From the NCBI GenBank assembly GCA_029210175.1, contig JARGPL010000002.1, positions 1 to 62,761 on the forward strand: 62,761 nucleotides of DNA. Direction: 5' to 3'. The translations under genes were made by a program, and so were the position numbers. The notes below the pieces were generated by a model that saw nothing but the letters and a program-made list of their open reading frames with translations, did not search any database and had not been told where the DNA came from. Each line of letters starts with the position of its first letter. Within the stretch, counting starts at the first letter, position 1. This stretch comes from Minwuia sp. (GTDB lineage Bacteria > Pseudomonadota > Alphaproteobacteria > Minwuiales > Minwuiaceae). Below are positions 1 to 61,401 of the stretch, piece after piece.

Positions 1-439
1 CGAACTCGTCTCCAGCCAGCCGGAAACGACCCGCGATTCCGGTTTTGGCCGAGACCTGCGCGAAGCCCAATCCCGCCGCCGTCAATGGCTGATCGCCGAA
101 GGTCTGGCGCGTGAAGACCAGGGTAACACAGTTTATCGCGCCAACATGCTGGACACCCTGCGTCGGCGCGAACTCACCCGTGTCTCAAGGCAACTCTCAA
201 AACAACTCGGTCTTGCCTATGTCGAGACCCGCCACGGCGAACCCGTCGAAGGCACGCTCCGCCGCGCGGTCGAACTCGCCAGCGGCAAATACGCCGTCAT
301 CGAAAAATCCCGCGAGTTCACCCTTGTTCCCTGGCGCCCCGTCCTCGACCGCCACATCGGCCAGCACGTCTCAGGCGTCATGCGCGGCGACAGCATCTCC
401 TGGACCATCGGACGACAACGCGGGCTGGGGATTTCATGA
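1..439 (+). CDS. Relaxase/mobilization nuclease, DUF3363 family, C-terminal part
   Basis: The frame is open from the window edge and ends at TGA 437-439, leaving about 145 residues. The end of the protein (EFTLVPWRPVLDRHIGQHV, then MRGDSISWTIGRQRG) is typical of DUF3363 proteins, the VirD2-like relaxases that usually sit beside traG and trb genes in alphaproteobacterial conjugative elements. The relaxase nicks oriT and leads the strand into the secretion channel. The catalytic N-terminal half lies outside the window, so activity cannot be judged. Its place just upstream of the nuclease module and traG fits an element running leftwards out of view. Family call good; exact subfamily not determinable. 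Confidence 0.8.
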   Translation, partial: ELVSSQPETTRDSGFGRDLREAQSRRRQWLIAEGLAREDQGNTVYRANMLDTLRRRELTRVSRQLSKQLGLAYVETRHGEPVEGTLRRAVELASGKYAVIEKSREFTLVPWRPVLDRHIGQHVSGVMRGDSISWTIGRQRGLGIS

Positions 440-541
440 GTGCGTTTCGAAATATGCACGCGACGGTAAATAGAATTCTGGAATTTTCGTGTCGGTTCCT
501 GTATTCGTATTATCAAAATCATTTTTATACTGGAGGGGGTT

Positions 542-1819
542 ATCGCCGCATATCGCTTCATCCATTCGGCGGATGTGCATCTCGATTCGCCGTTGCGCTC
601 ACTCGCCTTACGTGACCCCGAGTTGGCCTCGCTGATCGGCAACGCCACGCGGCGCGCTTTTGTGCGCATCATTGATCTGTGCCTTGAAGAGCGGGTGGAC
701 GCCCTTCTGCTGGCAGGCGATCTCTATGACGGCGATCAGACGTCCATGAAGACGGCACGTTTTCTGGCCGAGCAACTCCGGCGGCTTTCCGAGGCAGGCA
801 TCCAGGTATTCATCATCCGTGGCAATCACGATGCCTCGTCCCGCATTACTAAAGAACTGGTTTTCCCTGATTCCGTGAAAGTCTTCGGCGGCCGGGCTGA
901 GGCTGTATCCGTGGAGCGGGAAGCCGGGACCTTCCCTGTTGTGATCCATGGCCTGAGCTTTACCCAACCGCATGCTCCCGAAAGCCTGGTTGGTAAATAC
1001 AAACCGGCGGTCGGTGATGCGGTGAACATCGGCATCATGCACACCAGTTTGGCAGGCGCATCAGGACACGACCCATATGCCCCATGCAGCCTCGCCGATC
1101 TGAAAGGAACGGGCTTTCACTATTGGGCGCTCGGCCATGTACACAAGCGGACGGTCGAAGAAGGTCCGTGTACGGTTGTCATGCCGGGCATACCGCAGGG
1201 GCGGGATATGGGCGAGTCCGGGGGCAAATCCGTAACACTGGTGACCATTCAGGATGATCGGACGCTTCAGATCGAAGAACGGTTCACCAGCTTGGCGCAG
1301 TTCGAACGCGCCGATGTCGATGCAACAGGGGTTGAAGATTGGGGAAAACTTGCCGCTCTCATTGGCCGCTCTTTGGAACAAGCCCGGCACGGGATTGCTT
1401 CCGAGCATTTGGTGGCGCGGCTGCATTTCACGGGCGAAACGCCGCTTGCTTGGCGTATCCGACGGGACATTGACCTTCTCACAGCGGAGGCTCAGGACCG
1501 GGCTTCGGTCATCGGCGGCTGCTGGGTTGAGAAGCTGGAGACATCCTGCCAGACGCCAAGCGCCGCCAATGAAGGATCGTCTGATCCTCTCCTGGAACTG
1601 CGGGGGCTGATTACAGACAGTGTCATTGGCTCGGATGCGTTCCGAGCGGAACTGGTCACCATGGCCGATGAATTACGGAGGAAACTGCCGGGGGAATGCC
1701 GCGACATATTCGGCTCTGACGAAGAATCGTTCAAAGACAGCTTGGCGCTTCTGGCGCAGGAGGGCATGGAGGATGTGCTCGCCCGCCTTCACGCAGGCGA
1801 GAAAGGTGATCAAACCTGA
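542..1819 (+). CDS. YhaO/SbcD-like DNA repair exonuclease (metallophosphoesterase)
   Basis: Calcineurin-like phosphoesterase with the motifs of the Mre11/SbcD/YhaO nucleases in order: D-V-H (DVHLD), GDLYD, RGNHD, an HTSLAG histidine and GHVH. It probably processes DNA ends together with the ATPase encoded next, whose ATG overlaps this stop (TGATG). The start is odd. The first canonical start in frame is GTG 575, but the motif I aspartate is codon 572-574 and the homologous stretch YRFIHSADVHLD begins around 551. There is no ATG, GTG or TTG between the upstream in-frame stop (467) and 575. A GGAGG at 532-536 sits 5 nt before ATC 542, which is used here as a provisional non-canonical start (CTG 530 is an alternative). 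A lost start codon is also possible. Confidence 0.82.
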   Translation: MAAYRFIHSADVHLDSPLRSLALRDPELASLIGNATRRAFVRIIDLCLEERVDALLLAGDLYDGDQTSMKTARFLAEQLRRLSEAGIQVFIIRGNHDASSRITKELVFPDSVKVFGGRAEAVSVEREAGTFPVVIHGLSFTQPHAPESLVGKYKPAVGDAVNIGIMHTSLAGASGHDPYAPCSLADLKGTGFHYWALGHVHKRTVEEGPCTVVMPGIPQGRDMGESGGKSVTLVTIQDDRTLQIEERFTSLAQFERADVDATGVEDWGKLAALIGRSLEQARHGIASEHLVARLHFTGETPLAWRIRRDIDLLTAEAQDRASVIGGCWVEKLETSCQTPSAANEGSSDPLLELRGLITDSVIGSDAFRAELVTMADELRRKLPGECRDIFGSDEESFKDSLALLAQEGMEDVLARLHAGEKGDQT

Positions 1820-4800
1820 TGCGATTGAGCCGCCTTGACCTGACCCGCTATGGCATATTCACGGACCATAGCGTCGATTTCGGCGAGCGCGTGGGCGGAA
1901 CACCTGATTTACACATCATCTACGGCCCCAATGAAGCTGGCAAATCCACCTTGTTCGCGGCCTGGCTGGATCTTCTTTATGGGATCGAGATGCGAAGCCC
2001 GTATGGCTTCCTGCATCCCTACCCGACGATGCGGATTAGTGGCGCGCTGGAGTTCTCCGATAGTGTGCGTGAATTCGTGCGCATCAAGAAACCGCAAAAT
2101 AGCCTTCTCGATGTGCATGAGCAGCCTATTGCTGAAAGCGCAATCCTTGGCGAGTTTGGCGGCATCGACCGCGAAGCCTATCGCACCATGTTCTCGCTCG
2201 ATGATGACACGCTGAAGCAAGGTGGCGAAAGCATCCTGAAAGCCAAAGGAGAACTCGGGCAACTCCTGTTCTCTGGAAGCAGCGGTCTCGCTGACCTCAG
2301 CCGCAAGATCGAAGAGTTTCATTCGGAAGCCGATGGGTTTTACAAGTTCCACGCGCGTAGCGGGCAACTGCACGACTTAAAGAATGAGTTGGACCAGTTG
2401 AAACAGGAAAAAGACCAATTCGATACGCAGGCATCGAAACATGCCGAACTGGCGGAGACAGTCAAGCGCACAAAAGCCCTGTATGACGAAACGAGTAGGA
2501 GCCGCAGCAAACTTCAGGTGCGCAAGGATGAAATTCAGCGTCTGCTGAACGCGCGTCCCCGCCTTGCAAAATTACGTTCCCTTCGAGAGCAGATATCGCC
2601 GCTCGAAGCAATTCCCGATGCGCCGATGGGCTGGGCCGAAGAACTGCCTGCTTTGCACGAACAAGAGATTAAGCTTGTGACGCAAACCCAGTCGAATGCG
2701 GACGAGGTCAAGCGTCTGGAAACTGCTCTGGAGGCCATCACCGTTGATGACGCAGCATTGCGTCTGACGGATAAGTTGGAAGATATCGCGCCGCTCAGGG
2801 CGCGGCATATGACGGCCGAAAAGGATCTGCCTGATCGTCGCCAAAAATTGCGGGATCTCGATACCACCATCTCCCTTCACCTGCATCAGGTTGAACAGGG
2901 GGGAGAGACAAATCCGGCGCGCCTTATCCTGCCGGCATCGACAGTGGCACGCCTGCGTGAACTGATCGAGTCCCATTCAGGCATTGATGCGAAGTTGAGC
3001 ACGGCGCGCGAAGAATTGTTCGAGGCGAAGGAGCGCTTGAATGAGGCCACAGCCAAGTTAGGCGATGGCGCTCAAACAGGGAATACGGGGAACGAAACGT
3101 ACGTCACGACGCTCAAAGAGGCGCTTGCTGCGTTGCGGGCGAGTGATCATGCCGCCAGGCAACGTCTTGCGGAACGTGCGAGCCAAGATGCTCAGGCGAA
3201 GCTTGATGACTGTCTGGCCACCCTGACACCCTGGCGAGGGGAAGCTGACCAACTGGTTGCCATGTCCGTTCCTGGCGCGGACGCTCTCCAGCGGTGGAAG
3301 ACGACTGGGCAAGCCATTGAGAAGCGGATTGATCAGCGATCCGGAGAAATTGAGCGGCTGAGGACTGAAGAAGCGCGCCTGACAACGGAGCAGGACGCCG
3401 TGAGCAGCGTGACCGGGATTGTCACCGACCAGGACGCGGCGCAGATCAGGGCGGAACGTGATCACGCATGGGCGGAACATCGAAACCGCCTCGATGCCAG
3501 TTCCGCCGAACGATTTGAGGATGCGTTGCATCGTGATGATGGGATTGTGGCCCGGCGCTTCGGCCATGTGAAGGAACTGGCCCAGCTTCATGAAACTGCC
3601 AAGGCGCTCAAGCTTGTACAGTCTGACCTCGCCCGTGCCGAGGAACTACATGCCAAGGCGCTAGCAGATGCCCAAGAGTTAATGGGCCAAATTGCGGAAG
3701 CGATCAGTGCCCTTTCGCCTGACTTGCCGTCCGATTGGACTTTGCAGCATCTTGAGGCTTGGCTGATCTGTCGGGAAAAGGCGCTGGAGGCAAGGGGAGA
3801 GCTACGAACGGCGACACGGGATTTACAGGCAGCGCAGAATGATGCCGATGCCATCAGGGAGCGTCTCACTGCTGCGTTCACCGCCCTGAAGTTGCCCTTT
3901 GCGACTGACGCCGAGGAAGCGACACTGGCCGCAACGGCCCAGACTGCGCTCGATCATGAGGCGGAATTGAAACGCCTGCGCTCAGCGTGGGAAGAGCGCG
4001 GGCGCGATGTCAGCACCCGCGAACGCGCGTTTGAGCGAGCCGAATCTGAAAAACTTGCGTGGGATGCCGACTGGAAACAAATCTGCGCGGGCTGTTGGCT
4101 GGGCGAGCGTGGTGCGGCACCGATGATTGCCGAAGTGCGAGCCATTCTCACGATGATCTCCGAATTGGAATCCGCCCTGAAAGAAAAGGCGACACTTGCT
4201 GATCGGATCGCCAAAATGAAGGAAGATCAGGCCGCGTTTCGGGATGCAGTGACTTCACTGGCGAGTGAATTGGCTATTGCTTCGCCGGAGTCCGCAGCCG
4301 TCATGGACTTGGTCCGGGAAATTGATGAGCGCATTCGCAAGGCCGAAGCCGACCGTACCGAGAAGGCCAAGGAGACGCCGCGCCTTGAAACAGCTCAGGC
4401 CACAGCGCGGAAGTTGACGGCTGACAAGCTAGCCCTTGATCGCCGTAAGCAGGAAATGACCGAGTATTTCGGGGTGTCTACGCTTGCCGAGGTATCTGCA
4501 ACACTCGATCGGATCGCCATTAGAGAGGATTTGAGCGGGCAAGCTGCGGAGGAGATGCAAGAGATCCTCGATGCGTTGCGGCTTACCAGTTTTAAGGCAG
4601 CGGAATCTGCCCTCGATCGTCTGGATCAAACCGCGATGGAAACAGAACTCGCTGAGATTACGACGCAGGCCGGGGTCAAAGAGGAGGAGTGGCGCGATTC
4701 TTACGCTGCCTACAGAGATGCTGAAAAGCAGATCGAGGCCATTGGCGGTGACGCCAAAGTCGCCGAAATCGAGGAACAGCGGCGCACGGTCCTGCTGGAA

Positions 4801-5397
4801 ATAGAGGAAGGCGTGCGGCGTTACATGCGACTGCGCACCGGTACCATTGCGACCGAACAGGCGTTGCGCCTCTACCGAGAGCAGCACCGCAGCTCCATGA
4901 TGGCGCGTGCTTCCGAGGCCCTACGTACGATCAGCCGGGGCCGCTATATCAGCCTGACGACACAGCCGGATAAGGACAGCGAGGTTCTGGTCGCCATCGG
5001 CTCAGACAAGAGTTCAAAACTGGCGACGGAAATGTCTAGGGGAACGCGCTTTCAGCTCTATCTCGCCCTGCGTGTCGCAGGTTATTTCGAGTTCGCCAAA
5101 ACCAGAAACGCCGTTCCTTTTATCGCCGACGACATCATGGAAACCTTCGATGATTTCCGTGCCGAAGAAGCCTTCCGCCTATTCGCGGAAATGGCGGCAA
5201 CGGGACAGGTCATCTATCTCACGCACCACCAGCATCTTTGCGAAATCGCACGCCAAGTTTGCCCGACTGTAAAGGTTCACAATCTTCCAGAAGAAGCAGT
5301 CCATGAACGCCAGATCAAAGGACATGTTGATGGCGTAGAATTAGGCGGCAAACATCATGGGAGATTTTTAGAGATGGACCTAAACCGAACCCACTAA
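1819..5397 (+). CDS. YhaN-like AAA ATPase with long coiled coil
   Basis: A 1,192-residue SMC/Rad50-type protein. The N-terminal P-loop YGPNEAGKSTL (about residues 37-47) and the FGERVGGTPDL context match the YhaN AAA domain. Long Glu/Lys/Ala-rich coiled-coil segments fill residues about 190-1040. The C-terminal ATPase half contains MSRGTRFQLYLALR as the ABC-type signature, VPFIADDIMETFDD as Walker B and a switch histidine in YLTHHQH. No CxxC hook is evident in the coiled coil, unlike the ATPase encoded at 5620. YhaN partners with YhaO in Firmicutes, so the pair here (1-nt overlap) should form an SbcCD-like end-processing complex. Start ATG 1819 is fixed by the TGATG overlap. Confidence 0.85.
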   Translation: MRLSRLDLTRYGIFTDHSVDFGERVGGTPDLHIIYGPNEAGKSTLFAAWLDLLYGIEMRSPYGFLHPYPTMRISGALEFSDSVREFVRIKKPQNSLLDVHEQPIAESAILGEFGGIDREAYRTMFSLDDDTLKQGGESILKAKGELGQLLFSGSSGLADLSRKIEEFHSEADGFYKFHARSGQLHDLKNELDQLKQEKDQFDTQASKHAELAETVKRTKALYDETSRSRSKLQVRKDEIQRLLNARPRLAKLRSLREQISPLEAIPDAPMGWAEELPALHEQEIKLVTQTQSNADEVKRLETALEAITVDDAALRLTDKLEDIAPLRARHMTAEKDLPDRRQKLRDLDTTISLHLHQVEQGGETNPARLILPASTVARLRELIESHSGIDAKLSTAREELFEAKERLNEATAKLGDGAQTGNTGNETYVTTLKEALAALRASDHAARQRLAERASQDAQAKLDDCLATLTPWRGEADQLVAMSVPGADALQRWKTTGQAIEKRIDQRSGEIERLRTEEARLTTEQDAVSSVTGIVTDQDAAQIRAERDHAWAEHRNRLDASSAERFEDALHRDDGIVARRFGHVKELAQLHETAKALKLVQSDLARAEELHAKALADAQELMGQIAEAISALSPDLPSDWTLQHLEAWLICREKALEARGELRTATRDLQAAQNDADAIRERLTAAFTALKLPFATDAEEATLAATAQTALDHEAELKRLRSAWEERGRDVSTRERAFERAESEKLAWDADWKQICAGCWLGERGAAPMIAEVRAILTMISELESALKEKATLADRIAKMKEDQAAFRDAVTSLASELAIASPESAAVMDLVREIDERIRKAEADRTEKAKETPRLETAQATARKLTADKLALDRRKQEMTEYFGVSTLAEVSATLDRIAIREDLSGQAAEEMQEILDALRLTSFKAAESALDRLDQTAMETELAEITTQAGVKEEEWRDSYAAYRDAEKQIEAIGGDAKVAEIEEQRRTVLLEIEEGVRRYMRLRTGTIATEQALRLYREQHRSSMMARASEALRTISRGRYISLTTQPDKDSEVLVAIGSDKSSKLATEMSRGTRFQLYLALRVAGYFEFAKTRNAVPFIADDIMETFDDFRAEEAFRLFAEMAATGQVIYLTHHQHLCEIARQVCPTVKVHNLPEEAVHERQIKGHVDGVELGGKHHGRFLEMDLNRTH

Positions 5398-5413
5398 TAC
5401 CGGAGGTGTGGAA

Positions 5414-5623
5414 ATGGAAACATCGTCAACACAAACTGATGCGGAAGAATGCGGCGCGCAAGTAGCCACCGTGTCGGAAAGTATCTTGATGCAGTTTTTT
5501 GATGAACTGGCGAAGGACGAGTCGCTTAGCGAGATCGCGCCAAACCTCCGAAAAACTGTTCTGGACGACGGCGTGTTCGCCGAACCTGCGATACGCGCGG
5601 CCATATTCCCCGATGCACCATGA
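5414..5623 (+). CDS. Unknown small acidic protein within the nuclease/SMC module
   Basis: A 69-residue protein starting at ATG 5414 behind GGAGG (5402-5406); a GTG two codons upstream (5408) is less likely. It ends in a 4-nt overlap (ATGA) with the downstream ATPase gene, so the two are translationally coupled. The chain is acidic with an amphipathic middle (ILMQFFDELAKDESLSEIA), no membrane segment and no known motif. I do not recognise a family. Its location between two SMC-like ATPase genes suggests an adaptor or regulator of the complex, but that is inference only. Confidence 0.6.
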   Translation: METSSTQTDAEECGAQVATVSESILMQFFDELAKDESLSEIAPNLRKTVLDDGVFAEPAIRAAIFPDAP

Positions 5624-6717
5624 TTCGTATCGAGAATATCTATATCCACGAGTTCCGCGGTATCCGTGAACTGAAGCTCGACCTAAGGGGCCACAACTTC
5701 GCCGCCTGCGGGCCGAATGGGACGGGTAAGAGTGGCATCGTCGATGCACTCGAATTCGCTCTGACGGGCAACATCTCACGCCTCTCTGGTAGCGGCACAG
5801 GAGGCCTGTCAGTCAAGGTTCATGGCCCTCACGTTGATAGCCGAGACAAACCAGAGGCAGCATTCGTCACGCTGGACGTCAGCATCCCGGGACTCGGTGG
5901 CAAGAAGGCGACCATCCATCGCACAGTGAAGACGGCCGGAAGTCCGAAGATCACACCGCCAGACGCCGATGTCGTCGCCGCCTTTAACAGCGTCAACTTA
6001 CACCCAGAATTCGTCCTCTCACGACGGGAACTGATTCGCTACGTTCTCTCCGAGCCCGGCCAGCGCGCGAAGGAGGTTCAGGCTCTGCTTCGCCTCGACG
6101 ATATCGAGAAGCTGCGCGTAGTGCTGCAGAAAATTGCAAACGCTTGCAGCAAGGAATTGCCTGGCTTCGAGCGCGCCGAAGCCGATGCCAACAAGAATCT
6201 GCTGACTGCGCTGGACGCGCCACAGTTGACGAAGATGGCCGTTCTCGATGCGGTGAACCCTCGGCGTAAGACGCTCGGGCTTGCCCCTCTGACTGACCTT
6301 GAAGCCACGACTTCCCTGAAAGACGGATTGGCGACGACTGCCGCAGTAGGCGTCCCAGGGCGTGTTCCCAAGGTTCAGGCTGGTGCCGATCTATCGACAC
6401 TGAAGGAAGCGTTGGAGAAGCTTGGATCGGAAGCATTCCAAAAGGTATGTGAGAAAGCAGAGGATTCCGCAGCCGGGCTTGAGAAAGACGCTGATAGCCT
6501 GGACGGCTTGTCACGGGAAGCACTGCTCAAATCGGCCATCGAACTCTACGACGGAACCGCCTGCCCGGTCTGTGACACTCCCTTCGAACCTCGTATTTTC
6601 GAGGAGCATCTGGCGGCCAAGCTCAGCCATCTCGATGCCGTCACCAAGAAGCGGGCTGCCTTGGAATCGGAGATTAAGCCGACCCTCGACACGCTGCACG
6701 CGGCAGGGACGGCCCTA

Positions 6718-7767
6718 GAGCAGATTCACTTTAATCGGCGTCATATCCGGCGTGTGCAAAGAGGTTTTGGAATTCTTCGGGCTCGAAGATGTCGAGGGCG
6801 CGTGCAACGGCATTCCAGAGGTCAGGAATCGAGCGGGCTGCGAGCTTTCTGAGGAAGGCTTTGATCTTGGCGAAGGCCATCTCGATCGGATTAAAATCCG
6901 GCGAATAGGGCGGAAGATAGCGCAGCGTCGCGCCGGTCTCTTCGATCGCCTCCCGGACACCGGCGACTTTATGGGCTGGAAGATTATCCATCACCACGAT
7001 GTCGCCGGCCGACAGTGTCGGCGCAAGAACCTTGCGGAGGTAGGTGAGGAATGCGTCGCCATCCATTGCACCGTCCAGCAGCCACGGCGCGACGATCCCG
7101 TCGAGGCGCAGACCGGCGGTGAATGTGGTGGATTTCCAGTGGCCGTGCGGAACGGCGGCCCGGCAGCGCTCGCAGCGTTTGGATCGGCCTCGCAGCCGTG
7201 CCATCCTGGTGTTGAGCCCGCTCTCGTCGATGAAGATCAAGCGGCGTGGATCGAGGTCGAGTTGTCCCTCGAACCACGCCTGGCGTTCGGCCAGGACGTC
7301 TTCGCGCTGTTGCTCCGAAGCGTGGGCGGTCTTTTTTTCCATGTGATCCCGCGCTTCTTGAAGAACCTGTGGATCAGCGACGGGCAAGCACTCACGCCCT
7401 TTTCGGCCTTCAGGCGGTCGGCGATCTCGGCCAGGCTGATGTCTTTGTCGTCCGTTTCGATCAGCGCCAGAATGAAGGCTTCGTGCGCATCGAGCTTGGA
7501 GCCCTCGGGTTGGCCTTGGCGAGCCGGCTCGAACGTTCCTTTCGCGCGCCAGTCGCGATGCCAGGATCCCGCCGTCGACTCACCGATCGCGAACCGGCGA
7601 GCCGCTGCCCGCGTCGAAATTCCCGCTTCAATCGCCTCGATCACCCGCTTGCGCAGGTCAATGCCGTAAGCTCGAGCCATCCCTTCGCCCTCCTGATTCG
7701 GGCAAACAGGGAATCATTCGCCGACCAAAAACGCAAACCGACGACTCCGAATTCGATCAATCTGCTC
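6718..7767 (-). mobile_element. IS630-family insertion sequence, complete (1,050 bp)
   Basis: Both ends begin GAGCAGATT reading inward; the terminal inverted repeats are about 25 bp with roughly 17 matches, including CGG and GTC blocks further in. A TA target duplication flanks it (6716-6717 and 7768-7769), as expected for IS630/Tc1/mariner transposases. It carries a single transposase in two overlapping frames on the minus strand. The insertion splits the hook-bearing ATPase gene at 5620-9131. Because the ends, duplication and host frame are all clean, the insertion looks recent. Confidence 0.93.
6731..7680 (-). CDS. IS630-family transposase (two overlapping frames)
   Basis: The first frame (7680 to 7237) encodes the helix-turn-helix region: [20 protein letters not shown], then [20 protein letters not shown]. 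The second frame (open 7387 to 6731) encodes the DDE domain with [16 protein letters not shown] and [13 protein letters not shown], giving the DDE catalytic triad. The frames overlap between 7237 and 7387. Within that overlap the coding strand carries seven adenines (TTTTTTT at 7332-7338 on +) and the second frame is -1 relative to the first. Production of the whole transposase by -1 frameshifting or slippage on this run is typical of several IS630 members. It could instead be an inactivating indel, but both halves look intact. Confidence 0.88.
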
Positions 7768-9181
7768 TAGCGACCATGATCGGCTACGCTTCGCAGTTGT
7801 CACCGCAGGTCGATGCGACTGCGCTCAGCGATTTCAAGGCTGTCCTGATCGGTCGCTACCAACAGCTTCAGAAGCTCCTTCCGCTTGACGATACGCGCGC
7901 TGTGCTGACAAAGGCGCATGTCGTCCCCGAATTGGCGCCGACACTGGATGCACTCGCAGCCGCTATCAACGCTATCCCGGAGCCAACGAGACAGGATGCC
8001 GCGCGTGAATTTCTCGTCCTTGCCCAAGAGCGGCTTGAACAGTGCAGAGCGGCAAAACTTAAGGTCGCAGCGGCCAAGGTGCGGTCGGAACGCGCTACGA
8101 AGATTTTCACCACCTTTGGCCAGGTGACGACGGCAGCCCTTGAGAAGATCTACAAGGACGTCGAGACCGCCTTCTCAGGTTGCTACCGCAAGATCAACGA
8201 GGACGACGAAAGCGCCTTCACTGCCAAGTTGATGCCGTCGATGGGGAAGCTCGGCTTCGACGTTGACTTTTACGGCCGTGGACATTTCCCGCCGGGCGCC
8301 TATCACAGTGAAGGTCACCAGGATGGGATGGGGCTCTGCCTCTATCTGGCCCTCATGAGCCACCTGCTCGGGAAGAACTTTACCTTCGCTGTGCTGGACG
8401 ACGTGTTGATGTCAGTCGATGCCGGCCACCGGCGTCAAGTCTGCACACTCCTCAAAGAGAGTTTTCCGGATACGCAGTTCATTTTCACGACACATGACGA
8501 GATCTGGCTACGGCATATGAAGTCTGAAGGCCTGATCAAAGGGCGGAACTTTGCCCACTTCCGCACTTGGACGGTTGATCTCGGCCCCACCGAATGGGAT
8601 GACCGTGATGTATGGACCGAAATCGACGCCTACCTTGCCAAGGGCGATGTCAGGGGCGCGGCCGCGCTTCTGCGCCATTATCTGGAGCATTTTGCGAAGG
8701 AGGCTTGTGACCGTCTGAGAGCGAGCGTGGAATTCCGTGGCGACGCTCAATTCATGCTCGGCGATCTATTGCCAAACGCGACCAGTGCCCTTGGCGAGTT
8801 GCTGAAAAAGGCCAAGGCGGCAGCGAACTCTTGGAACCAGAAGGATATCATCGAGAAGATCGAAGTCACCGAAGCCACCTTCGGGGAGGCGAAGGTCAAG
8901 ACCAACCACCAGCAATGGCAGGTGAACACCGCCGTTCATTTCAACGCTTGGGCCGACCTCAAGAAGGAAGATTTCACGCCCGTCGTGGCCGCCTTCAAGG
9001 CGTTCACTGGCTCGTTCGGTTGCGCGACGTGTGGCGAAATGTATTTCGTGACACCTGATCGCGGTAGGAAAGAGGCCCTTCGCTGTGGATGCGGCGGGCT
9101 GAATCTCAACCTTCTGCAGAAGGGATCATAGCGACGCGTTGGTATCACACCGATATTTTTGGCATTCCGAGGGTATTCCAG

Positions 9182-9200
9182 CGTACATAAAGGCCATAAG
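9182..9200 (+). promoter_or_regulatory. Shared upstream motif CGTACATAAAGG-N2-ATAAG (copy 1, before traG)
   Basis: A 19-bp motif 63 nt before the traG start. The same motif, differing at two adjacent positions, is found at 11317-11335 before the ribbon-helix-helix gene. Both copies lie in the only long non-coding gaps of the transfer cluster, so they are likely operators or promoter elements of element-encoded control. Which regulator binds is unknown; the RHH protein at 11395 is a candidate. Confidence 0.55.
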
Positions 9201-9262
9201 CGTTTTCGGCGTCTCGCGCGATACTCGCTCCGTTTGTCTTGTTGAAGAACGGAGCCACCGCC

Positions 9263-11287
9263 ATGACCCCCACCAAACTCCTGATCGGCCAGATCACTGT
9301 TGTGTTCGCCATCGTCATCCTGGGCGTGTGGGCGGCGACGCAGTGGTGTGCGGATATGCTGGGCTATCAAGCGCAGTTGGGCAACCCGTGGTTCGTGCTG
9401 TTCGGCTGGCCGGTTTATGAGCCGTGGAAGCTGTTCCAATGGTGGTATTTTTACGAAGCCTATGCGCCCGAGGTTTTCGATAAGGCCGGGATGCTGGCGG
9501 CGGGCAGCGGTTTCATGGGCTGCGCGGCGGCGGTGATCGGTTCGCTGTGGCGGGCGCGGCAGAGCCGGTTGGTGACGACATATGGTTCTTCGCGCTGGGC
9601 TTTGCCGCGCGAGGTGCGGAAGGCCGGGCTGTTTCGGTCCGCAGGCGTGTTTCTGGGGCAGTTTCAGGAAAAATACCTGCGTCATGACGGGCCGGAGCAT
9701 GTCATGGCCTTTGCGCCGACGCGCTCCGGCAAGGGTGTCGGGCTGGTGGTGCCGACGCTTTTGTCGTGGACCGGCTCGGCGGTGATCCACGACATCAAAG
9801 GCGAGAACTGGCAATTGACAGCCGGCTGGCGCGCGAAGTTTTCGCATTGCCTGCTGTTCAACCCGACCGACCTACATTCCGCCCGTTACAATCCGTTGCT
9901 CGAAGTGCGCAAGGGAGCGAACGAGGTGCGCGACGTCCAGAATATTGCCGACATCCTCGTCGATCCCGAAGGCGCGCTCGAACGCCGGAACCATTGGGAG
10001 AAGACCAGCCATGCGTTGCTGGTGGGTGCGATCCTGCATGTGCTTTATGCCGAGGAAGAAAAAACGCTGGCGCGTGTGGCGACTTTTCTTTCTGACCCGA
10101 CACGGTCTTTTCCAGCAACGCTGAGGCGGATGATGGAGACCAATCATCTGGGAACGGCGGAAAATCCGGAGGTGCATCCGGTGGTGGCGTCGGCGGCCCG
10201 CGAGGTGCTGAACAAATCCGAGAATGAGCGTTCAGGTGTCTTGTCCACTGCCATGTCGTTCCTTGGGCTGTATCGTGATCCCACTGTGGCGGCGGCGACA
10301 TCGGCCTGTGACTGGCGCATCGCCGGTCTGATGGACGCCAAACATCCCGTCTCGCTTTATCTGGTCGTGCCGCCGTCGGATATCTCGCGCACCAAACCAC
10401 TGGTGCGGTTGATCCTTAATCAGATCGGGCGGCGGTTGACCGAGCGGCTGGAGGGCGACCCGAAGAAGTCGCGCAAGCACCAGCTTTTGATGATGCTGGA
10501 TGAGTTCCCCGCTTTGGGACGGCTGGATTTCTTCGAGACGGCACTGGCCTTCATGGCTGGTTACGGTATTCGCGCTTATCTCATCGCGCAGAGCCTCAAT
10601 CAGATTTCCAAAGCCTATGGCGAGAATAACGCCATCCTCGATAACTGCCATGTGCGAATTGCTTTCAGCAGCAATGACGAGCGTACCGCCAAGCGGATTT
10701 CCGATGCGCTGGGCACGGCCACCGAACTGCGCGCCATGCGCAATTATGCCGGCCACCGGCTGGCGCCGTGGTTGTCACACGTCATGGTATCGCGGCAGGA
10801 AACGGCGCGGCCCTTGCTCACGCCTGGTGAGGTCATGCAGCTTCCGCCGACGGATGAGTTGGTGCTGATCTCCGGCCTCGCGCCGATCCGCGCCCAAAAG
10901 CTGCGCTATTACGAGGATGGGAATTTCACCGAACGTGTGCTGCCCGTGCCCGCATTGGCGACAAGCGACTATGCCGACAAGCCTGAAGCGCGGCCCGATG
11001 ATTGGGGCAAGCAAGTGCGCAAGGCTGACACGCGGCTTGCCGCCCAAGATGATGCAAAATCGACCTCCACTGACGAAGGCGGGATGCAGCAACAGCGCCA
11101 TCCGGGGCTGGGCGAGGAAATTGTTAAAACCGCCGAACCCGAGCAGGGCGAATTGCCGAACCTCTTGGATGACGATCCTGACAGCACTGCCGATAAGAAG
11201 ATGATAGAGCGCGCCGCGACACCCGCGCGCGCCTATGGCGTGAATGAAGGCATGGGGCCGGACAGGGATCTGCTGGACGGGTTTTGA
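9263..11287 (+). CDS. traG: Type IV coupling protein TraG (VirD4 family)
   Basis: A 674-residue inner-membrane ATPase that links the relaxosome to the mating channel. The N-terminus has two membrane segments (residues about 8-27 and 75-92). Walker A is APTRSGKGVGLV (about residue 153) and Walker B is LLMMLDEFPALGRLD. The acidic, low-complexity C-terminus (after about residue 570) is typical of TraG. ATG 9263 is preferred over the in-frame TTG 9239 because AACGGAGCC lies at a suitable distance and MTPTKLLIGQ is the usual family start. It precedes the RHH regulator and trb operon in the standard order for this class of integrative element. Confidence 0.93.
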   Translation: MTPTKLLIGQITVVFAIVILGVWAATQWCADMLGYQAQLGNPWFVLFGWPVYEPWKLFQWWYFYEAYAPEVFDKAGMLAAGSGFMGCAAAVIGSLWRARQSRLVTTYGSSRWALPREVRKAGLFRSAGVFLGQFQEKYLRHDGPEHVMAFAPTRSGKGVGLVVPTLLSWTGSAVIHDIKGENWQLTAGWRAKFSHCLLFNPTDLHSARYNPLLEVRKGANEVRDVQNIADILVDPEGALERRNHWEKTSHALLVGAILHVLYAEEEKTLARVATFLSDPTRSFPATLRRMMETNHLGTAENPEVHPVVASAAREVLNKSENERSGVLSTAMSFLGLYRDPTVAAATSACDWRIAGLMDAKHPVSLYLVVPPSDISRTKPLVRLILNQIGRRLTERLEGDPKKSRKHQLLMMLDEFPALGRLDFFETALAFMAGYGIRAYLIAQSLNQISKAYGENNAILDNCHVRIAFSSNDERTAKRISDALGTATELRAMRNYAGHRLAPWLSHVMVSRQETARPLLTPGEVMQLPPTDELVLISGLAPIRAQKLRYYEDGNFTERVLPVPALATSDYADKPEARPDDWGKQVRKADTRLAAQDDAKSTSTDEGGMQQQRHPGLGEEIVKTAEPEQGELPNLLDDDPDSTADKKMIERAATPARAYGVNEGMGPDRDLLDGF

Positions 11288-61326: not shown

Positions 61327-61401
61327 GCGGGCGTAGCTCAGGGGTAGAGCATAACCTTGCCAAGGTTAGGGTCGTGAGTTCGAATCTCATCGCCCGCTCC
61401 A
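61327..61401 (+). tRNA. tRNA-Gly (GCC)
   Basis: Cloverleaf: acceptor GCGGGCG / CGCCCGC (61327-61333, 61391-61397), D-arm GCTCAGGGGTAGAGC, anticodon arm AACCTTGCCAAGGTT with anticodon GCC, T-arm GTGAGTTCGAATCTCAT and encoded CCA (61399-61401). The anticodon GCC reads glycine GGC/GGU codons. Confidence 0.97.

Follow-up and report, generated by a model that had tools for sequence, protein, structure and literature searches.

The window, as the whole 62,761-nt stretch analysed here is called (Minwuia sp., contig JARGPL010000002.1), carries a four-gene locus at positions 542–9131, situated between a relaxase gene (rlxS) and traG of a conjugative element. The genes encode a YhaO-like nuclease (gene 1), a YhaN-like ATPase (gene 2), a small acidic protein (gene 3) and a CPVC-hooked Rad50-like ATPase (gene 4). 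These identities were proposed in an earlier note made from the sequence alone and are borne out by profile matches (Table 1). The placement given there agrees with an RlxS/DUF3363 end at position 439 and traG at 9239–11287, and the close coupling it described is present as well: genes 1 and 2 overlap by 1 nt at position 1819, a 16-nt gap (5398–5413) separates genes 2 and 3, and genes 3 and 4 overlap by 4 nt (5620–5623). All four genes were found, but gene 4 is not intact; it is split by a 1,050-bp IS630-type element at 6718–7767. Genes 1–2 and genes 3–4 are two independent pairs, found separately in other genomes. The locus is read here, with moderate confidence, as defence-type cargo of the conjugative element made up of two cassettes, of which genes 3–4 would provide a DNA-triggered ATPase with an HEPN-like RNase and a small regulator.

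Table 1. Features of the locus in the window, and cargo found at the same junction in related elements (positions in L-numbered loci are those of the locus named).
Feature	Position	Strand	Basis or remark
Relaxase C-terminal end (RlxS/DUF3363), left slot edge	1–439	+	PF11843, E = 3e-38; NF041267 relax_RlxS, E = 1.6e-42 on 146–436
Cargo slot rlxS–traG	440–9238		Junction-length survey of relatives
Gene 1, YhaO-like Mre11/SbcD-type metallophosphoesterase	542–1819	+	Metallophos PF00149, E = 8e-14; PDB Mre11 chains, E = 8.7e-12
Gene 2, YhaN-like coiled-coil ATPase (AAA_27), paired with gene 1	1819–5397	+	AAA_27 PF13514, E = 6e-64; 1192 aa
Gene 3, small acidic protein paired with gene 4	5414–5623	+	Open reading frame; 69 aa, isoelectric point (pI) 4.05
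Gene 4, N-terminal part (Walker A, coiled coil, CPVC hook at 6562–6573)	5620–6717	+	AAA_23, E = 4.6e-12; alignment with intact relatives
IS630-type insertion; two overlapping frames (7237–7680, 6731–7387) encode the transposase	6718–7767	-	DDE_3, E = 5.2e-30; HTH_Tnp_IS630, E = 3.4e-07; inverted arms
Gene 4, C-terminal part (coiled-coil remainder, SEGHQD signature, LDD Walker B, helical domain, four-Cys knuckle)	7770–9131	+	Alignments with intact relatives
Gene 4, C-terminal motifs	R-x3-E 8673–8687; N-x3-H 8925–8939; four-Cys knuckle from 9021	+	Invariant alignment columns
traG (type IV coupling protein), right slot edge	9239–11287	+	Open reading frame; 98% identical in G384
Slot cargo, L182			N6-methylase
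Slot cargo, L183			SMODS CD-NTase and RTasSbcB-type exonuclease
Slot cargo, L184			DUF3644
Slot cargo, L195	3083–5362		AAA_13 RloC/PrrC-like protein (E = 9.6e-117) and helix-turn-helix gene; another alphaproteobacterium
Slot cargo, L181			Redox and transporter (metabolic) genes, no defence matches
Slot cargo, L185	11865–14691		Two genes, no family

The IS630-type element shows inverted arms of 28 nt that are 75% complementary, with TA at 6716–6717 and 7768–7769; its other matches in the same genome are 69% and 74% identical. With gene 4 broken by this insertion, the genes 3–4 cassette is presumably inactive in this strain. Thus genes 3–4 are probably dead in the window strain, and intact copies are present elsewhere.

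Genes 3–4 form a two-gene mobile cassette spread over many phyla. Open reading frames were checked in 81 loci, i.e. the 80 best of 244 genome relatives of gene 4 and the viral contig L091; 78 are intact, and L025, L038 and L087 contain stops. A small open reading frame lies directly upstream of gene 4 in 76 of the 78 intact loci and overlaps it by 4 nt in 66 of these 76. Upstream frames of 105 aa or less (n = 73) have a median pI of 4.6, with 60 of them below pI 5. In L068 the 40-aa upstream frame is unlike gene 3, and in L041 gene 3 was missed by the open reading frame finder and found by tblastn. No Pfam family is found in more than 2 of 43 gene 3 members (best E = 0.0014), and gene 3 has no PADLOC match at E ≤ 1. 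No third gene recurs with the pair, the largest neighbour cluster consisting of 5 loci. The gene 4 alignment consists of 74 rows, the intact L014, L015, L022 and L028 being left out, and the tree built on these rows intermingles 16 phylum-level labels. Tessaracoccus, Kocuria and Gordonia carry copies that are nearly identical, an indication of recent transfer.

Two further observations concern individual copies. In L014 (Vineibacter terrae, 8597–9100), gene 3 is inverted and gene 4 is without its first 28 residues, as would be produced by a small inversion cutting the cassette. The gene 4 proteins of L053 (Gemmobacter caeruleus) and L091 (an IMG/VR viral contig) are identical; the cassette may be on a prophage there, or the viral contig may be bacterial. 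L091 is the one full-length gene 4 match in IMG/VR, besides 35 partial matches of the N-terminal ATPase type.

Along gene 4, residues invariant in 74 of 74 rows comprise Walker A, the hook cysteines C315 and C318 (CPxC), S546/G548/Q550 of the signature, D576-D577, D583 and H608. To these are added R668, E672, W721, W749, N752, H756 and the cysteines C784/C787/C805/C807. The head of the full-length gene 4 model (predicted local distance difference test, pLDDT, 81; predicted template modelling score, pTM, 0.58) matches Rad50, with a Z of 26.4 to 4ncj and a root-mean-square deviation (rmsd) of 3.7 over 287 residues. The model of the C-terminal domain (pLDDT 84) is a helical bundle with a beta knuckle, its helices at positions 18–30, 34–56 (bearing R42 and E46), 70–94, 98–117 and 139–154. 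In structure comparison it comes closest to 2hsb, an HEPN protein (Z 5.8, a low value for a helical bundle; 113 residues aligned, rmsd 3.3), followed by 2q00 (Z 5.7), which we take to be an HEPN protein as well. In the model the Arg and Glu are within helix 2 and the His is in the loop preceding the last long helix. The available portion of one survey of HEPN domains places an acidic residue and the HEPN motif at positions matching the R/E and the His of gene 4, and also describes HEPN families with altered motifs (PMC3710099).

Several known systems resemble gene 4 in part. The R-x3-E motif first gave the idea of a family label of RloC, a Rad50-like anticodon nuclease. RloC is defined, in the accessible part of its description, by a Rad50-like zinc-hook insert together with R-x3-E-x36-52-H (PMC2610378). 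Gene 4 likewise predicts an ABC ATPase with a zinc-hook coiled coil and a C-terminal R-x3-E...H domain. An AAA_13 protein can be aligned with it at the Asp-Asp Walker B and the SEG signature, the one part that aligns in the whole-protein comparison, and the corresponding slot of L195 is filled by an AAA_13/PrrC-like protein. However, the spacing from E672 to H756 is 83 residues rather than 36–52, and gene 4 has an extra four-Cys knuckle and a conserved small upstream partner. PF13166 (AAA_13) gives no match for the window pieces. The label was dropped after the whole-protein comparison, the missing AAA_13 match and the lack of significant profile similarity, and RloC is retained as a model of mechanism. 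RloC/PrrC is not in the VIA list of structural neighbours of the C-terminal domain, which excludes nothing.

In Lamassu, a Rad50-like protein acts as the sensor and activates an effector distinct from it. Among five intact gene 4 proteins searched against PADLOC, LmuB is the top match in four (E = 4e-20 to 1e-23); in L083 it is second behind mad3 (E = 1.2e-24). These matches raise the alternative that gene 4 is a Lamassu-type LmuB with its effector, not necessarily an RNase, fused at the C-terminal end, and that gene 3 is a shrunken LmuC. This appears unlikely. The scores are modest and are followed by those of mad3 and PtuA. The LmuB match reaches residue 593 of the 611 of the model but covers the gene 4 ATPase only, leaving the last ~200 residues, the protein's own C-terminal domain, outside. 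No LmuA or LmuC is recognisable, since gene 3 is without a PADLOC match and no third gene recurs. With a spacing of 83, no AAA_13 match and LmuB over the ATPase only, gene 4 is therefore filed with neither RloC nor Lamassu; by comparison of their parts, it would at most resemble them in the way it works.

Two other arrangements are similar in organisation. The ABC-HEPN proteins (APECO1_4465 and ERFG_01251 groups), as far as the available portion of PMC3710099 describes them, carry an HEPN domain C-terminal to an ABC ATPase and are found in mobile islands. In gene 4, by contrast, the HEPN assignment is tentative, Rx4-6H is absent and the unit includes a small partner gene. The DndD/CxC ABC ATPase and DndE are described in the accessible text of PMC10853773 as a conserved pair of a hook-bearing ATPase and a small protein. 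Gene 4 differs in a CPxC rather than CxC hook, and no modification genes are found in the recurrent unit. Gene 3, compared with DndE, is an acidic protein of 58–87 aa without a Pfam match or an assigned ribbon-helix-helix fold. None of the models in Pfam, NCBIfam and PADLOC is a dedicated one matched by the window pieces, and none in PADLOC matches the five intact gene 4 proteins along their full length. A literature search showed no paper naming the pair, an earlier mention being possible.

The neighbourhood of genes 3–4 points to defence. At E ≤ 1e-25, the 115 nearest-neighbour proteins of the pair, taken from 70 loci, give hits to 92 PADLOC families. The comparison set, 114 proteins encoded in 19 chromosomal regions picked arbitrarily in ten genomes of the class, gives hits to 3. 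Both tallies are of families rather than proteins. QatA, DruM, type I and II restriction-modification, AbiEii and reverse transcriptase are among the matches listed (25 of the 92). In the archaeal locus L008 (Halorhabdus, 7548–10212) the pair is situated between pglX and pglZ of BREX-5. Public annotation gives the gene 4 family as 'AAA family ATPase' with a double-strand break repair term. This term and the Rad50-like head favour a different interpretation, namely that genes 3–4 are a stand-alone Rad50/SMC-type DNA repair pair in which the C-terminal domain is structural and not catalytic. Such a role is improbable for a pair with a patchy and horizontally spread distribution, situated in defence-rich islands and carrying enzyme-like R, E, N and H residues that stay constant throughout the 74 rows.

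The independence of the two pairs is seen in the 80 gene 4 loci, whose flanks extend up to 9 kb (9 kb on both sides in 44). A YhaO-like gene is found in the flanks of four, in three arrangements, and in none of the other 76. L016 carries four intact genes in the order of the window, between relaxase and traG; in L013 and L015 the YhaO-like gene is on the opposite strand ~6.5 kb upstream of gene 4, and in L055 it is divergent. A YhaN-like piece alone occurs in two further loci. On plasmid L128 a divergent YhaO/YhaN adjoins genes 3–4. In annotated neighbourhoods (L002–L008, L127, L130 and L132; L129 carries no annotation and was excluded) genes 3–4 occur as a pair without YhaO/YhaN, and L131 has its gene 4 relative annotated in pieces. 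Genes 1–2 occur without genes 3–4 in L009 and L010, and in L146 that pair has different downstream DNA. L055 and L056 have gene 4 proteins that are 84% identical, and YhaO/YhaN is found in L055 only. By tblastn against plasmid records the C-terminal half of gene 4 matches 33 and gene 1 matches 252. In a class-wide sample of 385 genomes, 3 carry gene 4 and 23 carry gene 1, and both are present only in the genome of the window itself.

These distributions bear on the proposal of the earlier note that one nuclease serves two SMC-type ATPases, i.e. that genes 1–4 encode a single complex with the YhaO nuclease shared by or passed between the ATPases. Tight coupling in the window, the intact copy in L016 and the proximity of YhaO/YhaN to genes 3–4 in L013, L015, L055 and L128 are consistent with it. 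However, order and strand vary from one meeting to the next, YhaO/YhaN has been lost beside a nearly identical pair in L056, and genes 1–2 persist without genes 3–4 in the related element G384. The search for co-occurrence of the four families that the note called for gave one intact copy in the same order (L016) and one of the three gene 4 genomes in the sample of 385, largely the outcome it had said would speak against the idea. The shared four-gene module was rejected on the separability of the pairs in loci and class sample and on the exchange for Gabija in the slot, and such a complex has little likelihood.

That exchange is seen on comparing the window with G384. The two are 96% identical over window positions 1–5265 (rlxS-yhaO-yhaN) and 93% identical from position 9182. 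Genes 1–2 are kept in G384, and in the place of genes 3–4, before traG and on the other strand, are GajA (E = 3e-196) and GajB (E = 3e-175), i.e. Gabija. The switch falls within the final codons of gene 2, and the C-terminal tail of gene 2 differs. Gabija thus takes up, next to the shared YhaO/YhaN, the slot held by genes 3–4 in the window but consists of unrelated genes (OLD/TOPRIM and UvrD); it is alternative cargo.

The rlxS–traG junction is a cargo slot that is defence-biased and non-exclusive. A traG search matches 28 of the 385 class genomes. The slot survey took in 29 loci, consisting of 27 of the 32 traG places besides the window and G384 (five partial or contig-edge places were dropped), L146 and L016. 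Six of the 29 (L179, L180, L186, L202, L203 and L204) could not be read. In 12 of the 23 readable relatives the rlxS–traG distance is 37–212 nt, i.e. the junction is empty, and in the other 11 it is filled with 0.6–10.5 kb. The cargo scan, which excludes L188, L197 and L199, gave the contents listed in Table 1. The two slot genes of L185 have no PADLOC match, the longer one has none in Pfam either, and they make up a candidate cargo system.

Known defence systems in the slot elsewhere, and neighbours of genes 3–4 rich in defence genes across genomes, uphold the suggestion of defence made in the earlier note, and the presence in defence islands that it asked about was found. The same note offered processing of transferred DNA as an alternative. 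A role of genes 3–4 in processing DNA, in entry exclusion or in maintaining the conjugative element is very improbable: their position between relaxase and traG in the window and L016 and conjugation genes nearby in L005, L006 and L132 would fit, but the flanks of the 80 loci hold a relaxase in 1 and traG in 2, close relatives of the element are without genes 3–4, and the junction of distant relatives is empty.

Genes 1–2, a metallophosphoesterase with intact motifs (in an alignment of seven sequences) and an AAA_27 ATPase in overlapping genes, resemble YhaO/YhaN, and also SbcCD and Mre11-Rad50, in the pairing of a metallophosphoesterase with a coiled-coil ATPase. The window copy differs from YhaO/YhaN in being mobile, in a cargo slot, and in its probable ATC start. 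It is a separate pair of nuclease and ATPase, sharing the slot with genes 3–4. The CxxC of gene 2 is not conserved in L010 or L055. In the papers found by a literature search no function of YhaO/YhaN was given, defence included.

Gene 1 shows no ATG, GTG or TTG at the site predicted by its ribosome-binding site; the in-frame codon there, at position 542, is ATC. The first ATG/GTG/TTG is at 575, and a start at that codon would lose the first phosphodiesterase motif. From the sequence, the ATC at 542 is the probable start. An ATC after the same GGAGGGGGTT (window region 533–580) is also found in L146 (3296–3310) and L016 (near 3918), the DNA of L016 being 77% identical to the window around the start. 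A strong ribosome-binding site with an in-frame ATC at the yhaO start is thus common to three copies of the relatives' yhaO. The start codon elsewhere is GTG in L009 and L010 and ATG in L055. A non-standard yhaO start, if conserved, would hold expression low.

Close to the right end of the window is a tRNA-Gly (gcc) gene at 61327–61401. No repeat of its 3′ end (15–30 nt) is found elsewhere within the window, and therefore no attachment-site pair was found there.

Several points weigh against defence-type cargo in two cassettes with an HEPN-like RNase in gene 4. L181 carries metabolic genes, and the slot is therefore not for defence only. All control proteins are chromosomal and come from a single class; the defence contrast is therefore overstated relative to matched islands and may partly be one of island versus core. 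The two pairs meet more often than random placement suggests, with at least three independent meetings (L016; L013/L015; L055; plasmid L128) in differing arrangements, and there may be functional synergy between them. The other points concern the C-terminal domain. A designed bundle, third among its structural neighbours, ties with the HEPN proteins (Z 5.0); Foldseek searches of PDB and BFVD brought no hit at E ≤ 0.001, and no sequence in PDB matches the domain below E = 1. Neither HEPN nor AAA_13 is among the families listed (25 of 54) for 52 gene 4 C-termini. The canonical HEPN Rx4-6H, a motif at the end of helix 3, is absent; the invariant motif in its place is W-x2-N-x3-H and lacks the Arg, and in both gene 4 models pLDDT falls below 50 in the loop with the histidine. 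By hhalign, the gene 4 C-terminal profile has no significant similarity to RloC-type C-termini (E = 0.027, probability 1.8).

Under the defence reading, the genes 3–4 cassette might work as follows. Gene 4 would dimerise through its hook, and its Rad50-like head would sense abnormal DNA such as ends, hairpins or the replicating DNA of an invader. An ATP-driven rearrangement could then lift the restraint that the head and gene 3 place on the C-terminal domain. This domain, as a putative HEPN-like, metal-independent RNase using R-x3-E and N-x3-H, would cut tRNA or other RNA, and growth would be stopped before the invader replicates. Gene 3 would be an obligate acidic regulator, an inhibitor or assembly factor being likelier than a second enzyme.

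Genes 3–4 may thus constitute an undescribed defence system of bacteria and haloarchaea, a tentative proposal that combines a zinc-hooked Rad50-like sensor, a fused HEPN-like RNase of a new kind and a restraining acidic partner in an island-borne cassette exchangeable with Gabija. If this is true, a family annotated as 'AAA family ATPase, double-strand break repair' would become a testable defence system in which DNA sensing is linked to RNA cutting and a regulator gene is built in. The rlxS–traG junction, where known and unknown defence cassettes swap, would be a marker for further systems.

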